NCBI GenBank assembly: GCA_903911145.1
Contig: CAIWCD010000049.1
Location: forward strand, 1 to 64,000
Length of the DNA stretch: 64,000 nucleotides
Reading direction: 5' to 3'
Source: an uncultured delta proteobacterium
GTDB taxonomy: Bacteria > Myxococcota > Myxococcia > Myxococcales > 40CM-4-68-19
Of the stretch, positions 34,149 to 60,728 are shown in pieces; the first letter of the stretch is position 1; each line of letters opens with the position of its first letter. Under the pieces are notes generated by a model. It saw nothing but the letters and a program-made list of their open reading frames with translations. It searched no databases and was not told the origin of the DNA. Both the position numbers and the translations under genes were made by a program.

Positions 34149-34164
34149 TGCATGCCCCTTTGTC

Positions 34165-34212
34165 GATGTTTGGTGTTCAAAGCAATATGATTGGCACTCA
34201 AACCATCTCGCG
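34165..34212. repeat. AT-rich interspersed palindromic element, copy A
   Basis: Minus-strand GAGATGGTTTGAGTGCCAATCATATTGCTTTGAACACCAAACATC aligns by eye with copies at 46.3, 55.9 and 59.7 kb. Confidence 0.5.
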
Positions 34213-38236: not shown

Positions 38237-39388
38237 TCAACGCTCTTTAAGCACATCGCGCGCGATCACCAGTCGCTGGATCTCGCTGGTGCCCTCATAG
38301 ATCGTCGTCACGCGTGCATCGCGATAGTGCCGTTCGGCGGGGAACTCATCGATATATCCATATCCGCCATGAATCTGGACGGAGATATCGCAGGCCCGGT
38401 TGGCCTTCTCGCTGGCGAATAGCTTCGCCATCGAGCCTTCACTGGTGAACGGGCGACCGGCCTCCTTCAATACCGCGGCTCGCAGCACGAGCAGGCGCGC
38501 CGCAGCGAGCTCCGTATCGACGTCGGCGAGCATGAATCGAAGCGCCTGGAATTCGCCGATTGGCTTGCCGAATGCGCTGCGCTCCTTCGCATATCGAACG
38601 GCGCAATTCATTGCTGCCGTGCCGATTCCGATCGATTGCGCGCCAATCCCGATGCGTCCGCCGTCGAGCGCGGCGAGCGCGATGGAGAAGCCTTGACCCT
38701 CCACGCCCAGCATTGCGCTGGCTGGCACACGGAGATCCTCGAACGTGAGCGCAACCGTGCTCGACGCACGCAGGCCCATCTTGTCTTCCTTCTTGCCGAT
38801 GTGCAGGCCCGTGGCGCCGGCCTCGACGAGAAAGCAGGAGATCCCTTTGTGCGCCGAATCAGGCGCGCCAGTCCTGGCCCAGACGATGATGACGCCCGCG
38901 CGATCGCCGGCGCTGATCCACTGCTTGCTGCCGTTGATCACGAAATCGCTGCCGTCGCGGCGCGCGCTGGTGCGCATCGCTGCGGGATCGGAACCGCAGT
39001 GCGATTCGGAGAGGCCAAACGAGGCGGCCGTAAATCGGCCTGACGTGATCTCAGGGACGTAGCGCGTCTTCTGCACATCGGTGCCGAAGCGCACGAGCGT
39101 CTCGGCAACCATGTTGTTGACTGCCATCGTCACGGCCGTCGACGCGCACCCCTGCGCGACCTCCATCATTGCCAACGCATATGAGACAGCGCCGGCCTCC
39201 GCGCCGCCGAGGGACTCGGGGATATTCACGCCCATCAGGCCAAGTTCGGCGAGCGCGCGGCTGTGCTCGACTGGGAACGCCTGCTCACGATCCATCCGCG
39301 CGGCATCAGGAGCAAGCGATTGCTGCGCATAGGCCCGCGCAGTCTTCTGCACTGCGGCCTGCGTCTCGGACGGTTCAAACAGGGTCAT
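38237..39388 (-). CDS. Acyl-CoA dehydrogenase
   Basis: FGLSESHCGSDPAAMRT, FVINGSKQWISAG, GYGYIDEFPAERHYRDARVTTIYEGTSEIQRLVIARDVL. Confidence 0.95.
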   Translation of the reverse strand: MTLFEPSETQAAVQKTARAYAQQSLAPDAARMDREQAFPVEHSRALAELGLMGVNIPESLGGAEAGAVSYALAMMEVAQGCASTAVTMAVNNMVAETLVRFGTDVQKTRYVPEITSGRFTAASFGLSESHCGSDPAAMRTSARRDGSDFVINGSKQWISAGDRAGVIIVWARTGAPDSAHKGISCFLVEAGATGLHIGKKEDKMGLRASSTVALTFEDLRVPASAMLGVEGQGFSIALAALDGGRIGIGAQSIGIGTAAMNCAVRYAKERSAFGKPIGEFQALRFMLADVDTELAAARLLVLRAAVLKEAGRPFTSEGSMAKLFASEKANRACDISVQIHGGYGYIDEFPAERHYRDARVTTIYEGTSEIQRLVIARDVLKER

Positions 39389-39946: not shown

Positions 39947-41085
39947 GCCTTGAGTAGCGCGTTGGCAATCACGAGCCGTTGAATCTCGCTCGTACCTTCG
40001 TAGATTTCAGTGATGCGCGCGTCGCGGAAGTGCCGCTCGATGGGCAACTCCTTCGAGTAGCCCATGCCGCCGTGGATCTGTACCGACTTGTCGGTCACCC
40101 GCCCGCTCATCTCGGATGCGTACAACTTGGCCATCGACGATTCGCGCGAGTGGCGCACGCCCGCGTCCTTCATGCTCGCCGCGCGCAGCGTCAGCAACTG
40201 AGCCGCGGAGATCTCCGTGGCCATATCCGCCAGCATGAATTGAATCGCCTGGTGGTTCGAGATCGGCACGTCGAAGGTCTTGCGAACCTTCGCGTACTCG
40301 CGCGCGCCCTCGAAGGCCGCCCGCGCGATGCCGATCGCCTGCGCTGCGATGCCGATGCGTCCACCGTCGAGCGTCGCCATCGCGATCTTGAAGCCGTCTC
40401 CCTCGTTGCCGAGTCGCTGCGACTCGTGCACCTCGAGGTTGTCGAAGAACATCGTGCAAGACGGAGATGCGCAGATCCCGAGCTTCTCATCTGCCTTCTG
40501 GCGCAAGAATCCGGGCGCGTTCGTCTCGACGAGAAACGCCGTGATGCCCTTGGTTCCCTTGCTCGGATCCGTGATCGTGAAGAGGACCATCGCGTCCGCG
40601 ACGGGGCCGTTGGTGATCCAGTTCTTCGTCCCGTTGATGACGTACTTGTCGCCCTTCTTCACCGCGAGCGTGCGCTGCTCCGCTGCGTCGCTGCCTGCGT
40701 TCGGCTCGGTGAGCCCGAAACAGCCGAGCTTCTGGCCGCTCGCAAACGGCGTGAGGAAACGCTCGCGCTGTGCATCGGTGCCGAACTTGTAGACCGGGTC
40801 GCAATAGAGCGAATTCGACACCGAGAGCGTCACGCCCGTCGAGGCGCAACCGCGCGAGATCTCCTCGACGGCAAGCGCATACGCGACGTTGTCCATCCCC
40901 GCGCCGCCCCACTTCTCGGGCACCGCGACGGCGAAGAGGCCCAACTCGGCGCACTTCTTCACCGCCTCGGCCGGGAACGTGTGCGCGCGGTCCCACGCGC
41001 TCGCATTGGGCTTGAGCTCCTTCTCCGCGAACTCACGGCAGGTGTCGCGAAGCAGCCGTTGCTCGTCGGTCAGTTCAGTCAGCAT
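39943..41085 (-). CDS. Acyl-CoA dehydrogenase
   Basis: FGLTEPNAGSDAAEQRT, YVINGTKNWITNGPVAD, GGMGYSKELPIERHFRDARITEIYEGTSEIQRLVIANALL. Confidence 0.95.
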   Translation of the reverse strand: MLTELTDEQRLLRDTCREFAEKELKPNASAWDRAHTFPAEAVKKCAELGLFAVAVPEKWGGAGMDNVAYALAVEEISRGCASTGVTLSVSNSLYCDPVYKFGTDAQRERFLTPFASGQKLGCFGLTEPNAGSDAAEQRTLAVKKGDKYVINGTKNWITNGPVADAMVLFTITDPSKGTKGITAFLVETNAPGFLRQKADEKLGICASPSCTMFFDNLEVHESQRLGNEGDGFKIAMATLDGGRIGIAAQAIGIARAAFEGAREYAKVRKTFDVPISNHQAIQFMLADMATEISAAQLLTLRAASMKDAGVRHSRESSMAKLYASEMSGRVTDKSVQIHGGMGYSKELPIERHFRDARITEIYEGTSEIQRLVIANALLKA

Positions 41086-41527: not shown

Positions 41528-42685
41528 CTAGACCCCCGCCGACGCTGCAGCAATGAGGCTGCGGCCAATGACCATGCGCTGAATCTGCGACGTCCCCTCG
41601 TAGATCTGCAGCAGCTTCGCGTCTCGCATCAGTTTCTCCACCGGATACTCCTTCGTGTAGCCATAGCCGCCGAAAATCTGCACGGCATCGGTCGCCACCT
41701 GCATTGCCGAGTCTGCCCCGAACGCCTTCGCGTAGGCCGACTCAATCGCGTCGAGCTTGCCCTGCCCGATGTTCCACGCAGCCTTGAGCATCAGCAGGCG
41801 CGTCGCTTCATACTTCATCGCCATGTCGGCGAGCATGAATTGGATCGCCTGGAACTGGCCGATCGCCTGGCCGAACGCCTTGCGCTCCGTCGCGTACTTC
41901 GTGCACTCCTCAAGCGCGCGCCGCATGATGCCCGTCGCTCCTGCGGCAATCCACGGACGCGAGCGATCGAACGTCTTCATCGCGACCTTGAAGCCCTGCC
42001 CTTCGGCGCCGACAAGGTGCGCCTTCGTGAGCTTCACGTCCTCGTAGATGATGTCGCAGGTGTTGGACGCGCGCTGGCCGAGCTTGTCCTCCTTGCGGCC
42101 CACCGAGACGCCCGGCAGATCGCGCGGGACGACGAAGCAGGTGATCCCCTTGTGGCGGTCCGTTGCGTCGCCTGTGCGTGCGAACGTCGTGTACCAGTTG
42201 GCATAGGCGCCGTTGGTGATCCAGCGCTTGATGCCGTTGAGGATCCACTCGTCGCCGACCTTGCGCACCGTGGTCCGCATGCCCGCCACGTCCGAGCCCG
42301 CGTCCGGCTCGCTGCAGGCGTATGCCGCGAACGAGCAGGAGTCGGTGAGCTGTCCGAGGTAGTTCTTCTTCTGCTCCTCGGTGCCCGCGAGGATCAGCGG
42401 CATCGCGGCGAGGTTGTTCCCTGCGAGCGTCGTCCCGATCCCGGCGCAACCGAAATTGATCTCCTCCTGCATCAGCACGTGATCCAGCGTCGAGAGACCG
42501 AGGCCGCCGTACTCCTGCGGCACCTCTCCGTTCATCAGGCCGAGCTCCCAGCCCTCCTTGCAGATCTCCGAGGGAAACGTCCCGTGCTCGTCGAGCTTCT
42601 GCGCGACGGGGATGATCTTCTCCTTGGTGAACTTGCGAGCCGTTGCAATCAGGCGCTGCTGGTCATCGTTCAGCGAAAAATCCAT
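41528..42685 (-). CDS. Acyl-CoA dehydrogenase
   Basis: AAYACSEPDAGSDVAGMRT, WILNGIKRWITNGAYAN, GYGYTKEYPVEKLMRDAKLLQIYEGTSQIQRMVIGRSL. Confidence 0.95.
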   Translation of the reverse strand: MDFSLNDDQQRLIATARKFTKEKIIPVAQKLDEHGTFPSEICKEGWELGLMNGEVPQEYGGLGLSTLDHVLMQEEINFGCAGIGTTLAGNNLAAMPLILAGTEEQKKNYLGQLTDSCSFAAYACSEPDAGSDVAGMRTTVRKVGDEWILNGIKRWITNGAYANWYTTFARTGDATDRHKGITCFVVPRDLPGVSVGRKEDKLGQRASNTCDIIYEDVKLTKAHLVGAEGQGFKVAMKTFDRSRPWIAAGATGIMRRALEECTKYATERKAFGQAIGQFQAIQFMLADMAMKYEATRLLMLKAAWNIGQGKLDAIESAYAKAFGADSAMQVATDAVQIFGGYGYTKEYPVEKLMRDAKLLQIYEGTSQIQRMVIGRSLIAAASAGV

Positions 42686-46308: not shown

Positions 46309-46352
46309 GAAATGATTGCTATGCCAATAATTGGTACACCAAGCAGTTTCAG
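46309..46352. repeat. AT-rich interspersed palindromic element, copy B
   Basis: Minus-strand GAAACTGCTTGGTGTACCAATTATTGGCATAGCAATCATTTCG. Confidence 0.55.
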
Positions 46353-46771: not shown

Positions 46772-46803
46772 CGCATCTCCTTGCCTGGCCTGCGAGAGCG
46801 CTC

Positions 46804-46828
46804 GACCGTTGGTATACCAACGATCTCC
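46804..46828. repeat. AT-rich interspersed palindromic element, copy C (perfect 16-bp palindrome)
   Basis: CGTTGGTATACCAACG (46807-46822) followed by ATCTC. Confidence 0.65.
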
Positions 46829-54846: not shown

Positions 54847-54871
54847 GCTTCGTGTATTTCCTACACGAAGC
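54847..54871. terminator. Hairpin between/overlapping convergent gene ends
   Basis: GCTTCGTGTA-TTTCC-TACACGAAGC, perfect 10-bp stem; no clear U-tract. Confidence 0.5.
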
Positions 54872-56672
54872 TCATGCCGTCGTGACCGGGGCCGTGGCCC
54901 GAAAGCACAGCTGCACTTTCGCTGCGCCGCCGATCGGTCAGCTCGCTCACCATCTCGAGGATCTGCGGGTGCGTAAGGATCAGCTCCTGGAAATCCTCGG
55001 GGGGCAGCCGGAGCAGGATGGTCGTGCTCAAGGCGGTCACCGTCGCGCTCGCGGGCTCATTGCTCAGCAGTGACATCTCGCCGAACATCTCGCCCTCTTT
55101 CAGGCGAGCGAGCTCGACTTCGCGCGCGCCTGCGACCTGCTTGTGCACGCGTACGCCGCCGTGGAGGATGAGGAAGAGACCGTTCGCGGCCTGCGCCTCG
55201 CGAATGATGACGTCGCCCGCGGCAGCCTGCTTCATCTTGAACCGCTCGACGATCGCGCGCCGCTCGCCCGGATCGAAATCGCGGAAGAGCGGGGAGATCG
55301 CCATCACGTTGTTGACGAGGCGCTGCCGATAGAAGTTCTTCAACGACGTCGCGACAGAGGGGTAGCGCGCCACGGTCTCGCGCAGCACGTCGTCGGAGAT
55401 CTCGAACAACTCGGTCTCCGCTTCCGCGACGACATTTGCGGCGCGCGCCGCACCGGAGAGCAGCGCCATCTCGCCGAAGAAGGCGCCTTCTCCGAGCGTC
55501 GCGAGCACCAACTCCGCGCCGTCCGGCAAACGCTTGAAGACCCGCACCCGGCCCTCAACCACGACGAAGAAGCTGCGGCCCGCCTCGCCCTCACGCAGGA
55601 TCATCTCGCCGGGTGCCCAGCGTTTGTAGCTGAGGCGATTGACGAGCTCGACGAAGGCCTGCTGCGGAAGATCGTCAAAGAGGGGAACCTTCGCGGGGAG
55701 TCGCACAGGCTTCGGCGGAACGAGTGAAGAGAAGACCGCCTCAAACTCACCCGTCGTCGCGAGGCCCAGTGGCTCGTGCTCCTCGGGGCCTGCCTCGACG
55801 TTGTCACTCTCGACGCTGAGCAGCTCGATCTCGTCTTCGTCCTGGGCGAGGAGATCCGCGATCGGGCGCGCAGCCGCGCCAGCAGGACGCGCGCTCGAGC
55901 TGTCTCGAATCGTTGGTGTACCAACGATCTCAGCGCGCGCACGAAGCGGCGCATCATCCTCCGTGATGATCTCGATCTCGTCGCTCGGCGGTAGCGCGAT
56001 CACGCGCGGCGCGGACTTCTTTTCGGGCACAGGCGCGCTCCCGCCCTTGACTGGCGCGGGAGTTCCGCTCGTAGGCGTCGCGCGCGCAGACGGACCGGGG
56101 ACAAGCTCGAGCTCTTCGGCGGGGCCAGCGTCGAGCTCGATGGGCGCTCGCGATCTCGCGAACGGTGCGGGGCGAGGCAGGACCTGCGCAGCCGCACTCG
56201 CACCACGCGTCCCCTCGAGCATCGCGCCGATCTGATCGACCGCCTTGTGCCCCTCCGCGAGTTCCATCTCGCTCACACCACGCGCGCCCGCGCCGATCCC
56301 CTTGGCCACCTTGGGCTGGGCAGGCTCTGTCGCAGGCTTCGCGAAACGCCGACCGTTCATCTGCGCCAGGTCCTGCTGCGCCGCCTGGTTCTTCGGATCG
56401 ATCTCGAGAATGACCTTGAATGCGCCGATCGCCTTGATCAGTTGCCCGTCCTCACCGAACTGCCGCCCGGCCGTCTGGTAGCAGGCGATGGCCTTCTCTT
56501 CGATGCCGAGCCGACGATACGTGTCGCCGAGTTTGAGACGGTGCTGCATGTCCTTCGGCTCGAGTCGCGCCAACTGTTCGAGGATCTCGGCGGCCTTGTC
56601 GAACTTGCTCTTGCCGAGAAACTCGGCCGCCTGATCCTTCAGCTTGCGGGTGTCGACTGTCGGGGAGGCCAT
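54861..56672 (-). CDS. TPR-like region + two cyclic nucleotide-binding domains
   Basis: N-terminal TPR-like AAEILEQLARLEPKDMQHRLKLGDTYRRLG; two cNMP domains (GEMILREGEAGRSFFVVVEGRVRVF...GEMALLSGAARAANVVAE and GDVIIREAQAANGLFLILHGGVRVH...GEMSLLSNEPASATVTA). Confidence 0.87.
   Translation of the reverse strand: MASPTVDTRKLKDQAAEFLGKSKFDKAAEILEQLARLEPKDMQHRLKLGDTYRRLGIEEKAIACYQTAGRQFGEDGQLIKAIGAFKVILEIDPKNQAAQQDLAQMNGRRFAKPATEPAQPKVAKGIGAGARGVSEMELAEGHKAVDQIGAMLEGTRGASAAAQVLPRPAPFARSRAPIELDAGPAEELELVPGPSARATPTSGTPAPVKGGSAPVPEKKSAPRVIALPPSDEIEIITEDDAPLRARAEIVGTPTIRDSSSARPAGAAARPIADLLAQDEDEIELLSVESDNVEAGPEEHEPLGLATTGEFEAVFSSLVPPKPVRLPAKVPLFDDLPQQAFVELVNRLSYKRWAPGEMILREGEAGRSFFVVVEGRVRVFKRLPDGAELVLATLGEGAFFGEMALLSGAARAANVVAEAETELFEISDDVLRETVARYPSVATSLKNFYRQRLVNNVMAISPLFRDFDPGERRAIVERFKMKQAAAGDVIIREAQAANGLFLILHGGVRVHKQVAGAREVELARLKEGEMFGEMSLLSNEPASATVTALSTTILLRLPPEDFQELILTHPQILEMVSELTDRRRSESAAVLSGHGPGHDGMSFV
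55905..55930. repeat. AT-rich interspersed palindromic element, copy D (in frame)
   Basis: ATCGTTGGTGTACCAACGAT palindrome (55909-55928), followed by CTC; minus strand encodes EIVGTPTI. Confidence 0.65.
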
Positions 56673-56676
56673 CGGA

Positions 56677-58770
56677 TCACCTTGTGGTCGGCGCATCAGC
56701 AGCGGCCGGAACTGCGCAAGCGTCGCGAACGCGTCGCTCAGGATCGTGGGTCAACGTCGCCCGCAACAACTCGCTCGGACCGTCGTGAAGCTGCGCAAGC
56801 AGCGTGCATGCCGCGGCCCGATCGCCGCCGTCGTCGCTCCAGAGCGAGACCCGCGCAGCCTCCGTGGCATTTGGAGGAACAGCGACAGAGGGAAGCTGCG
56901 CAAGCAGTTGCCCTAGACAGCCCGGCCTGGCAGCGCGAGTCGGCGCCGGATGCACCACCGAGTTCGCGAGCGCAATCCGCGCGGGCGCATTCCAATCGAT
57001 CCCACTGTCCGCGACCGCCTTCTGGGCCGCATCAGGATCGGCAACAGAGGCCTCGTCCCTGGCTGGGAAACAGTCGGCAGAGAGCGCAGCTGTGCTGGGC
57101 GCGGTTGGGAGAGATTCGCCGCGCGCGGCCATCGCGACTGCACGGTCGGGATCGGACCGCAACTGCGCTGCGATCTCCGTGGCGCCTTTGGCGTCGAGGG
57201 AGATCAGTGCGCGCAGCGCCGAGGCAAGCAACGGATGCGAACTCGGAACAACAACGTCTGCGGCCAGCAACTGCTTCAGTCGCGCGGCGGCGTCCTGGCG
57301 CGGCGTCGCTCCGTTCTTCTCCTGCCGGGCGCGCACCATCGCCATCAGCTTCGCGATCTTCTCCCGATCTGCAGTCGGTGCGCGCATCGCAGCCTCGGCC
57401 AACTCCCGCGCAGCAGCGGCATGATCGTCCGACTCCGACTTGTGCGCGGCCCGCTCATTCTCGAGCGCCGCGAGCTCCCGCTTCACCACGGCAAGCAACT
57501 GCGGACCCGCGCGGGAAGCATGGAGCTTCTCGATGACGATCGACGCAGTCACGGGGAGCGTTCCCGTCGCACGAGACGCCACTTCGCCGAGCGCCAGTTC
57601 GACCGCAGGTGACACCAGAGCCGCTTTTGTCACATGCGTCCCGTCGCTCCCGCCTGCACTGGTCTGTGCAAGCGCCTCGATCAGAACAGCGGCGCGTTCC
57701 GCGGTGATCGACCGGAGTGGAAGCGTTCCCTTGTCCGCCTTGAGCAGCAGAACCAGAGCCTCTCCGAATGGTGCAGGAGAACAGCCGTGGGCAAGCAGAG
57801 CCGCTGCGCCGGGACGGCGGGCGAGGAGAGCCGTCGCGCATAAAGTCTGCGCAGGAGCCACGGCCGCGAGCGCACCAGCGGCAAACTCCGCGTCCTCCGC
57901 GTCGCCCTGCGCACGAAGCGCCAGCGCCGTCTGCGCGCCCGCCAGCGCGTCGCCGCCAAACGATCCGAGTGCCTCGACCGCCGTTGAAGAGATCAGCGGC
58001 ACGTTCTCGCCAACAAGTTTCTGCAGCGCAGGAATGGCGCTCTTCGCCGCCGCGAGACCAAGTCCGTCTGCAGCGGCGGCCACCACAGCTCCGTCTCTGT
58101 CATCGAGGAGAGGCGAGAGCTTCGCGACATCATCAGGGCGGCCGAGCAAGCCAAGATCATGCGCGCCCGCTGCGCGCCAGGCCGAGACCGCTCCGCCGAG
58201 TCGCTCGAGCGCGCGTGCACGGCGGGTCTGCTCCTCGTGAGCGAGTTGCTTCTCCCGCGGAACGCCACAGCGTTCGAGCGCCTCGGCGACCGCCATCCGC
58301 ACAGGGGGGCCACTGCGCGCGAACGCTCCGTGCAGGTAGGCGATCGAACGCTCGTTGCACCGCGCACCGAGAACGCGCGCGGCCGCAATTCGCACCGTCT
58401 CGTCGAGGTCGCTCAACGAGGCCGAGAGCGCGTCGTCTGCGAGCGCGCCTCGCTCCGCCGGATCGCGCGATCCCGCTCTGGGCGCGGCCGCGAGCGATTC
58501 AATCGCCGCGATTCGCACTTGCGCGGCAGGGTCGCGCGTCGCTCGCTCAAGCGCGACCCAGATCTCATCGTCGTCCCGCCGTTCCAACTGGCCGAGCGAA
58601 CGAACCGCCGCGGTCCGCTCCCGCGGAGTCGGGGCGTGGAGGCCTTGCAGAGCCACCGTGCGCGCACTGGGACCGCACGCGATCGCGAACGAGAGCGCCG
58701 CACACAGCAGCGTCATTCGCGCCGATATGTTCGAACGCCGTTCGCCCGGATCCGCGTGCGTCATCGTCAT
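56677..58770 (-). CDS. HEAT-repeat protein
   Basis: Repeated helical units, e.g. RDPAAQVRIAAIESLAAAP, LDETVRIAAARVLGARC, GPPVRMAVAEALERCG. Confidence 0.8.
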   Translation of the reverse strand: MTMTHADPGERRSNISARMTLLCAALSFAIACGPSARTVALQGLHAPTPRERTAAVRSLGQLERRDDDEIWVALERATRDPAAQVRIAAIESLAAAPRAGSRDPAERGALADDALSASLSDLDETVRIAAARVLGARCNERSIAYLHGAFARSGPPVRMAVAEALERCGVPREKQLAHEEQTRRARALERLGGAVSAWRAAGAHDLGLLGRPDDVAKLSPLLDDRDGAVVAAAADGLGLAAAKSAIPALQKLVGENVPLISSTAVEALGSFGGDALAGAQTALALRAQGDAEDAEFAAGALAAVAPAQTLCATALLARRPGAAALLAHGCSPAPFGEALVLLLKADKGTLPLRSITAERAAVLIEALAQTSAGGSDGTHVTKAALVSPAVELALGEVASRATGTLPVTASIVIEKLHASRAGPQLLAVVKRELAALENERAAHKSESDDHAAAARELAEAAMRAPTADREKIAKLMAMVRARQEKNGATPRQDAAARLKQLLAADVVVPSSHPLLASALRALISLDAKGATEIAAQLRSDPDRAVAMAARGESLPTAPSTAALSADCFPARDEASVADPDAAQKAVADSGIDWNAPARIALANSVVHPAPTRAARPGCLGQLLAQLPSVAVPPNATEAARVSLWSDDGGDRAAACTLLAQLHDGPSELLRATLTHDPERRVRDACAVPAAADAPTTR

Positions 58771-59600: not shown

Positions 59601-60728
59601 CTACGCTCCCTTGTTGTCCGCTGGCGCGGGAGCGGAAGTGCCCTGGGCCGCATGTTCATCTGGTGCTGCCTCGATGCTTTGAGTACCAATTGTTGCTGTA
59701 CCAACGATCTCGGCGCCGGCCTGGTGCGAGCGAATCAAGACCGCTCCCGCCATCGACGTGTGCGGCGACTCGCCCGGCGCACCTGTCCCGGCACCCGGGG
59801 GCGCGAGGACGGCCGCGGTGCTCTTGGCGTGCGCGTCGGCAACCTCCATCGCCTTCTCGAGTTGCTCGAGCGCGGCATCGCTCTCGACCGACGCCTCCTT
59901 CATCTTCTGCTCGAGGACAGGATCGTGCGCGAGCGCGGTGAGACCCGTCACGGGCGGCGCGTCGGGCGTCTCCTCCTCGACGATCTTGCGGCTCTCTTCC
60001 GAAAGTTCCTGGAACTCGCGCAGCGTCGGCAACTGCGTCAGGTCGCGCAGGTTGAACAACTCGAGGAACTCCTTGCTCGTGCCGTAGATCAGCGGCCGCC
60101 CTGGCTCGTCCTTCTTGCCGAGGATTCGGATGAGCTTGCGCTCGAGCAGCGCCTTGGTCACCGCGCCGCAATCGACGCCGCGGATGTCTTCCATCTCAGG
60201 ACGCGTCAGCGGTTGCCGATAGGCAATGATCGCCAGCGTCTCGAGAGCCGCGCGCGTGAGGCGCAGCGGCTTGACCTGCAGCATGCGGCGCACGTATGCG
60301 CCCACCGCGGGCTCCGTGCGCAATTGCCAACGCCCACCGAGATCCGCGAGCGCGATGCCTCCCTTGCGCGCGACATACTGCTCGCTGAGCGTCGCCATCC
60401 CCTGCGCGACCTGCTCTTGCGAGAACTGCGTCGCCTCCATCAGTCCGGGCAGGTCGAGCGGCTTCTCGGCAGCGAAGAGAAGCGCCTCGAGGACCTGGCA
60501 GACGCGCTCCGGCGCAGCGAAGCGCGCGGCCTCTGCAAGCAGCTTGAGGTCGTCCTGCGCAGCCGCAACGAGCTCCTCTTCATCGCTCTTCTTCGGATCG
60601 CTGGGGAACTCGATCTCACTCGGCGGCCGCGCGAACAGTTCGCCCGCGGGTGTCGTGATCGGCTCGGCCGCGGCCGGCGCGGCCTCCGCATCCTTCGCCG
60701 CCGTTTCCTTCTCAACCTCGGTAGTCAA
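59601..60728 (-). CDS. scpB: SMC-Scp complex subunit ScpB with long N- and C-terminal extensions
   Basis: VLEALLFAAEKPLDLPGL, GGRWQLRTEPAVGAYVRRML, LTRAALETLAIIAYRQPLTRPEMEDIRGVDCGAVTKALLERKLIRILGKKDEPGRPLIYGTS. Confidence 0.95.
   Translation of the reverse strand: MTTEVEKETAAKDAEAAPAAAEPITTPAGELFARPPSEIEFPSDPKKSDEEELVAAAQDDLKLLAEAARFAAPERVCQVLEALLFAAEKPLDLPGLMEATQFSQEQVAQGMATLSEQYVARKGGIALADLGGRWQLRTEPAVGAYVRRMLQVKPLRLTRAALETLAIIAYRQPLTRPEMEDIRGVDCGAVTKALLERKLIRILGKKDEPGRPLIYGTSKEFLELFNLRDLTQLPTLREFQELSEESRKIVEEETPDAPPVTGLTALAHDPVLEQKMKEASVESDAALEQLEKAMEVADAHAKSTAAVLAPPGAGTGAPGESPHTSMAGAVLIRSHQAGAEIVGTATIGTQSIEAAPDEHAAQGTSAPAPADNKGA
59673..59714. repeat. AT-rich interspersed palindromic element, copy E (in frame)
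   Basis: Minus-strand GAGATCGTTGGTACAGCAACAATTGGTACTCAAAGCATCGA encodes EIVGTATIGTQSI in the ScpB C-terminal tail. Confidence 0.65.

Follow-up and report, generated by a model that had tools for sequence, protein, structure and literature searches.

The palindrome in the linker of a TPR/double-cNMP protein belongs to a dispersed family of short DNA elements, which we judge, with somewhat better than even confidence, to be a DNA recognition site specific to this species, numbering about 350 loci and maintained in this lineage. Sequence comparison suggests that in most of the conserved genes examined the motif is not an insertion, and that codons were overwritten without a change in protein length. 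Such in-place overwriting suggests that the motif is a site recognised chromosome-wide, and that it is neither a peptide motif nor a plain insertion.

Family members in the window

The window, the whole 64-kb stretch of DNA analysed, comes from a 5.3-Mb genome in 53 unordered contigs. An earlier note had described a palindromic repeat in the cNMP-protein linker, read as EIVGTPTI, and this holds: the 20-mer ATCGTTGGTGTACCAACGAT occupies 55909-55928 and reads in frame on the minus strand as ARAEIVGTPTIRDSS. The counterpart that the note placed in ScpB, EIVGTATI, lies at 59689-59708 and is in fact part of a two-unit array at 59672-59710 that encodes EIVGTATIGTQSI. With up to three mismatches, the 20-mer matches the window at three places (46805, 55909 and 59689), and 100 dinucleotide shuffles of the window gave zero such matches. 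Five family loci lie in the window, listed here with two host genes; the first three loci go unmentioned in the note:

34164-34208, no strand assigned: two cores (34170-34181 and 34191-34202) at 21-bp spacing, between two minus-strand genes
46310-46348, no strand assigned: two-unit array (cores 46316-46327 and 46331-46342), between two minus-strand genes
46803-46826, no strand assigned: single-unit site CGACCGTTGGTATACCAACGATCT, intergenic, 17 nt from the 3' end of a minus-strand gene
55907-55930, no strand assigned: single-unit site GAATCGTTGGTGTACCAACGATCT (core 55913-55924), pattern and matrix match at 30.5 bits
59672-59710, no strand assigned: two-unit array (cores 59678-59689 and 59693-59704, 15-bp spacing), in the scpB C-terminal tail
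54861-56696, minus strand: open reading frame of the host gene with TPR repeats and two cNMP-binding domains (Pfam PF00027, 4e-49)
59601-60728, minus strand: open reading frame of the host gene for ScpB (Pfam PF04079, 1.5e-49)

Both noted copies sit in variable places, as had been proposed. In orthologue alignments the cNMP linker is unalignable and the ScpB copy falls in a tail; orthologues of the TPR/double-cNMP protein are without the 55907-55930 site, and the scpB C-terminal tail is missing or unrelated in 11 orthologues. Separately, the window carries three 110-nt direct repeats, 66-75% alike and 1.6-1.7 kb apart (38484-38593, 40187-40296 and 41787-41896), which are probably a row of paralogous genes.

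Anatomy of the motif

The family is built on a degenerate, nearly palindromic core of 12 bp, TTKSHRYDSMAA, set in a 24-bp footprint, MRATSG-core-CSATYK. Conservation runs 6 bp either side of the core and ends sharply at -7, with AT at ~90% at flank positions -4/-3. Further cores may follow at 15-bp spacing, joined by a linker that is mostly TNA; this tandem form occurs in 68 copies vs 0 for the control, and triple arrays number 10. Units sharing an array are usually different variants, which counts against simple tandem duplication. Most cores are one of four variants, TTTGAGTGCCAA, TTGGTGTACCAA, TTGGTGTTCAAA and TTTGAGTGCAAA (reverse complements included), several at comparable frequency; a small number of variants recur, and their positions are correlated. 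Some arrays, including that at 34164-34208 of the window and one around 11618 of stretch L134, have a spacing of 21 bp instead of 15 bp, with extra palindromic GCAAATTG/CAATTTGC-like linkers.

Sequences flanking different copies are unrelated, and on that ground the motif was rejected as a fragment of a larger repeat. A conserved RNA was likewise rejected, given zero Rfam matches in 46-60 kb, and core positions 3 and 10 do not covary. Two 10-mers, AGATCGATCT and GAGATCGATC, stand ~40-60x above the expectation from base composition in a 1.25-Mb sample and resemble the outer arms of the motif joined together; their enrichment is likely a matter of codon usage. An 18-nt tandem repeat with the consensus GGTTAATCCAGTGCTGCC (L023 15016-15352; G000:C13:55016-55352) is one local minisatellite, with no dispersed copies.

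Number and placement across the genome

Searched across all 5.3 Mb at up to three mismatches, the 20-mer matches 67 places vs 0 for a reversed control, and a strict form of the site gave 170 matches vs 0. The core pattern returned 66 matches in 0.86 Mb vs 1-21 with control patterns. A base-by-base sample of 1.25 Mb, made up of the window and further stretches and covering ~1/4 of the genome, contains 91 clusters of the core pattern; the genome total of about 350-360 loci is extrapolated from 86 in that sample. As a held-out test, a matrix trained on two contigs recovered, from the remaining contigs, 54 loci that score more than 20 bits, and found none with the matrix reversed or in 0.40 Mb of a relative (G004). 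Loci of intermediate score, as decayed copies would have, are rare in the matrix scan.

Placement, counted with a home-made gene caller, departs from chance. Among the 86 loci, 53 are intragenic, 19 intergenic, 10 lie across a stop codon and 4 over a gene start, against chance expectations of 78, 5, 2 and 1. Intergenic and stop-codon loci thus make up 29/86 vs 6.6 expected, and the earlier restriction of the repeat to linkers gives way, since about a third of copies fall outside genes or across stop codons. Copies occur in all three reading frames and on both strands, with a gene-strand orientation bias of 31 to 13, probably because one orientation creates a stop codon. The loci are scattered across all sampled contigs, and their spacing shows no departure from random (CV 0.91; random 0.84-1.21).

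Same-length placement in conserved genes

We aligned motif-bearing genes with orthologues from the same family. These relatives are distant, mostly at about 50-77% protein identity in the compared genes, too far apart for the emergence of a site to be followed. Gene names given here without a Pfam match are those we take to apply on recognition of the sequence, with no family search. In the presumptive LysA, YRLAASLPG of the orthologue corresponds to YRLSANLPG, at equal length and over homologous codons. Equal-length replacement recurs in the DeoB-like gene (GVRTVGVGK to GVPTIGVGK), the M3-like peptidase (GDDWYGN to GDDWYTN), the hydrolase (GGWLALRLAL to GGWLALKLIL) and a sixth, unnamed gene (YRDRLVGDDLRD to YRDRLSANDLRD). 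In LpxK, where LTGPPPIAALP corresponds to MIGTPTISALP, two orthologues have equal length and the others are shorter.

Elsewhere the motif-bearing gene has extra residues. HemF is longer by 8 aa (exactly 24 nt) than 7/8 orthologues, the eighth having 2 extra residues of its own; a phosphoglycerate mutase-like (PGAM-like) gene is longer by 10 aa (30 nt); and MetG has about 4 aa more beside the motif than most orthologues. Two more loops have extra residues as well, as do the tail of ScpB and the linker of the cNMP protein. All are confined to variable loops and tails, and outside HemF and the PGAM-like gene their lengths mostly differ from that of the element. The proposal that the repeat is a tolerated insertion in low-complexity linkers therefore does not stand as a general rule, given the six conserved genes unchanged in length; in variable loops and tails, where there are extra residues, insertion is possible, not shown. 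Taken together, the data rule out a peptide motif and speak against an origin by insertion alone.

At several same-length sites, although not in LysA, the motif-free orthologue already has a motif score above that of 99% of windows in the genome; conservation of the protein could by itself account for such a score. Random overwriting followed by purifying selection is another process that could lead to same-length sites with similar residues.

Distribution among relatives

None of the 59 relatives searched, one of them a same-genus genome, carries the tandem form (0 matches). A class-wide set of 147 genomes yielded a single match, in one other genome. One array pattern found two isolated matches in unrelated taxa of the GTDB genome collection, in a scan that may omit the window's own and near genomes, and two viral scans gave one isolated match each. 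Strict single sites number 0-3 in each relative, all of them strong palindromes and mostly with a different centre (GC). A de novo search of 0.40 Mb of G004 recovered no similar family. Lone palindromes of similar general design do occur in relatives L274 (G006), L275 (G004) and L276 (G007), among the examples being ATAGTTTGAGCGCAAACGAT in the rpmH-dnaA spacer and ATCGTTGGAACGCCAACGAT, which lies a short way upstream of a MarR-like gene. They could represent common operators or, alternatively, an ancestor of the site.

The proposed recognition site and its rivals

We infer that a putative dimeric protein would bind the site and could oligomerise along the 15-bp arrays. Selection, or else drive or biased import of site-carrying DNA, would maintain sites at the DNA level, and sites would settle where coding constraint allows. 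By analogy, the site would most likely serve either to mark self DNA, as uptake sequences do, or to anchor and organise the chromosome in the manner of Noc/SlmA sites; the data favor neither role over the other. The recurring core variants and scarce decayed copies also suit recent copying, which keeps a mobile or written origin in view.

Foremost among the rivals, and rather unlikely while still deserving weight, is a small mobile palindrome of the REP or RPE kind, inserting in lengths of 24+15n nt. Such lengths are always a multiple of three, so that the element would survive in frame in linkers and loops. The flush 24-bp edges and frame-neutral lengths fit this account, as do the exactly 24 extra nucleotides of HemF and the 30 of the PGAM-like gene, the few recurring variants and the few decayed copies. 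However, six conserved genes carry the motif without a length change, extra lengths elsewhere are mostly unequal to that of the element, and both the expected edge tag and the transposase gene are missing: base frequencies at and beyond the footprint edges contain no GTAG/CGTC tag, and a PF01797 (Y1 transposase) profile search of the genome gave 0 matches while being positive in 5 control genomes. The REP-associated tyrosine (Y1) transposase may be lost in some hosts.

More speculatively, and improbable in our estimate, the family could be a chromosome-wide mark of a new kind: a degenerate palindrome of 24 bp, arrayed in phase every 15 bp, that a putative recognition or writing system would recently have placed in some 350 genes and spacers of one lineage, with conserved codons rewritten in place and lengths unchanged. 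A sequence-writing process, by short-patch gene conversion or templated repair that overwrites about 24 nt from a template wherever tolerated, strikes us as doubtful. Same-length replacement, recurring variants and few intermediates would follow from it, but a template or master locus was not found, and point substitution with selection is a simpler account of the conserved-gene cases. We know of no mechanism for patches so short without flanking homology.

That the octapeptide is a functional protein motif common to unrelated proteins is scarcely credible: one frame does yield IVGTPTI, IGTQSI or IAMPNI, and IVGTPTI- or IGTQS-like peptides recur in a number of proteins, ScpB and the cNMP protein among them, but the same DNA gives DRWCSKH, DALSAND or LALKL in other frames and occurs intergenically, which rules the motif out. 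Since copies fall in every frame and on either strand, span stop codons and also occur intergenically, EIVGT(P/A)TI is just one reading of the DNA. The earlier note had itself favored a DNA element over a conserved peptide, to be refuted by conservation of the peptide in orthologues with unrelated codon usage; the alignments found the peptide absent from them, in agreement with that reading.

There are few known cases of a bacterial DNA motif that reshapes the proteome in hundreds of positions, and in this lies the wider interest of the family. Its spread appears to have taken place within a single species, the same-genus relative tested being without it; it alters codons of conserved enzymes and offers a fresh case for the origin of uptake-type or chromosome-organising sites. 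It also cautions that short peptides common to unrelated proteins can be pure DNA-level effects.

Comparison with known systems

REP elements are small dispersed palindromes with known intragenic copies (PMC3733652), and the present family resembles them and the RPE of Rickettsia in being small, dispersed, palindromic and also intragenic. It differs in having neither the GTAG/CGTC tag nor a RAYT/Y1 transposase and in its same-length placement in conserved genes; REP/RAYT membership was rejected on the tag and the transposase. HIP1 of cyanobacteria is, like the family, an over-represented palindrome of unclear role (PMC4390886). It is a fixed octamer, GCGATCGC, linked to DNA methyltransferases, and the family core differs from it.

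The DUS of Neisseriaceae and USS of Pasteurellaceae are short motifs over-represented genome-wide, intragenic as well as intergenic, that favor permissive sites (PMC2346458, PMC2397512); new uptake sequences have been argued to arrive by recombination, not by point mutation alone (PMC2397512). The family is likewise strongly over-represented genome-wide, within and between genes, and its intergenic and stop-codon excess is the permissive-site pattern (PMC2397512). In contrast to the single fixed core of DUS and USS, its core is degenerate, with several variants at comparable frequency, and it has 15-bp arrays and a density of ~1 per 15 kb, whereas DUS and USS number well over a thousand per genome. 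Noc-binding sites (NBS), about 70 in number (PMC4331003), and SlmA sites are, like the family, palindromes scattered over the chromosome; sites of the Noc/SlmA type are depleted near the terminus and bound by an oligomerising protein, where the binder here is putative. The family has several times more sites, is species-restricted and forms fixed-spacing arrays. By analogy, then, uptake sequences would be the closest precedent for placement, and Noc-type sites the closest for palindromes bound by an oligomerising protein.
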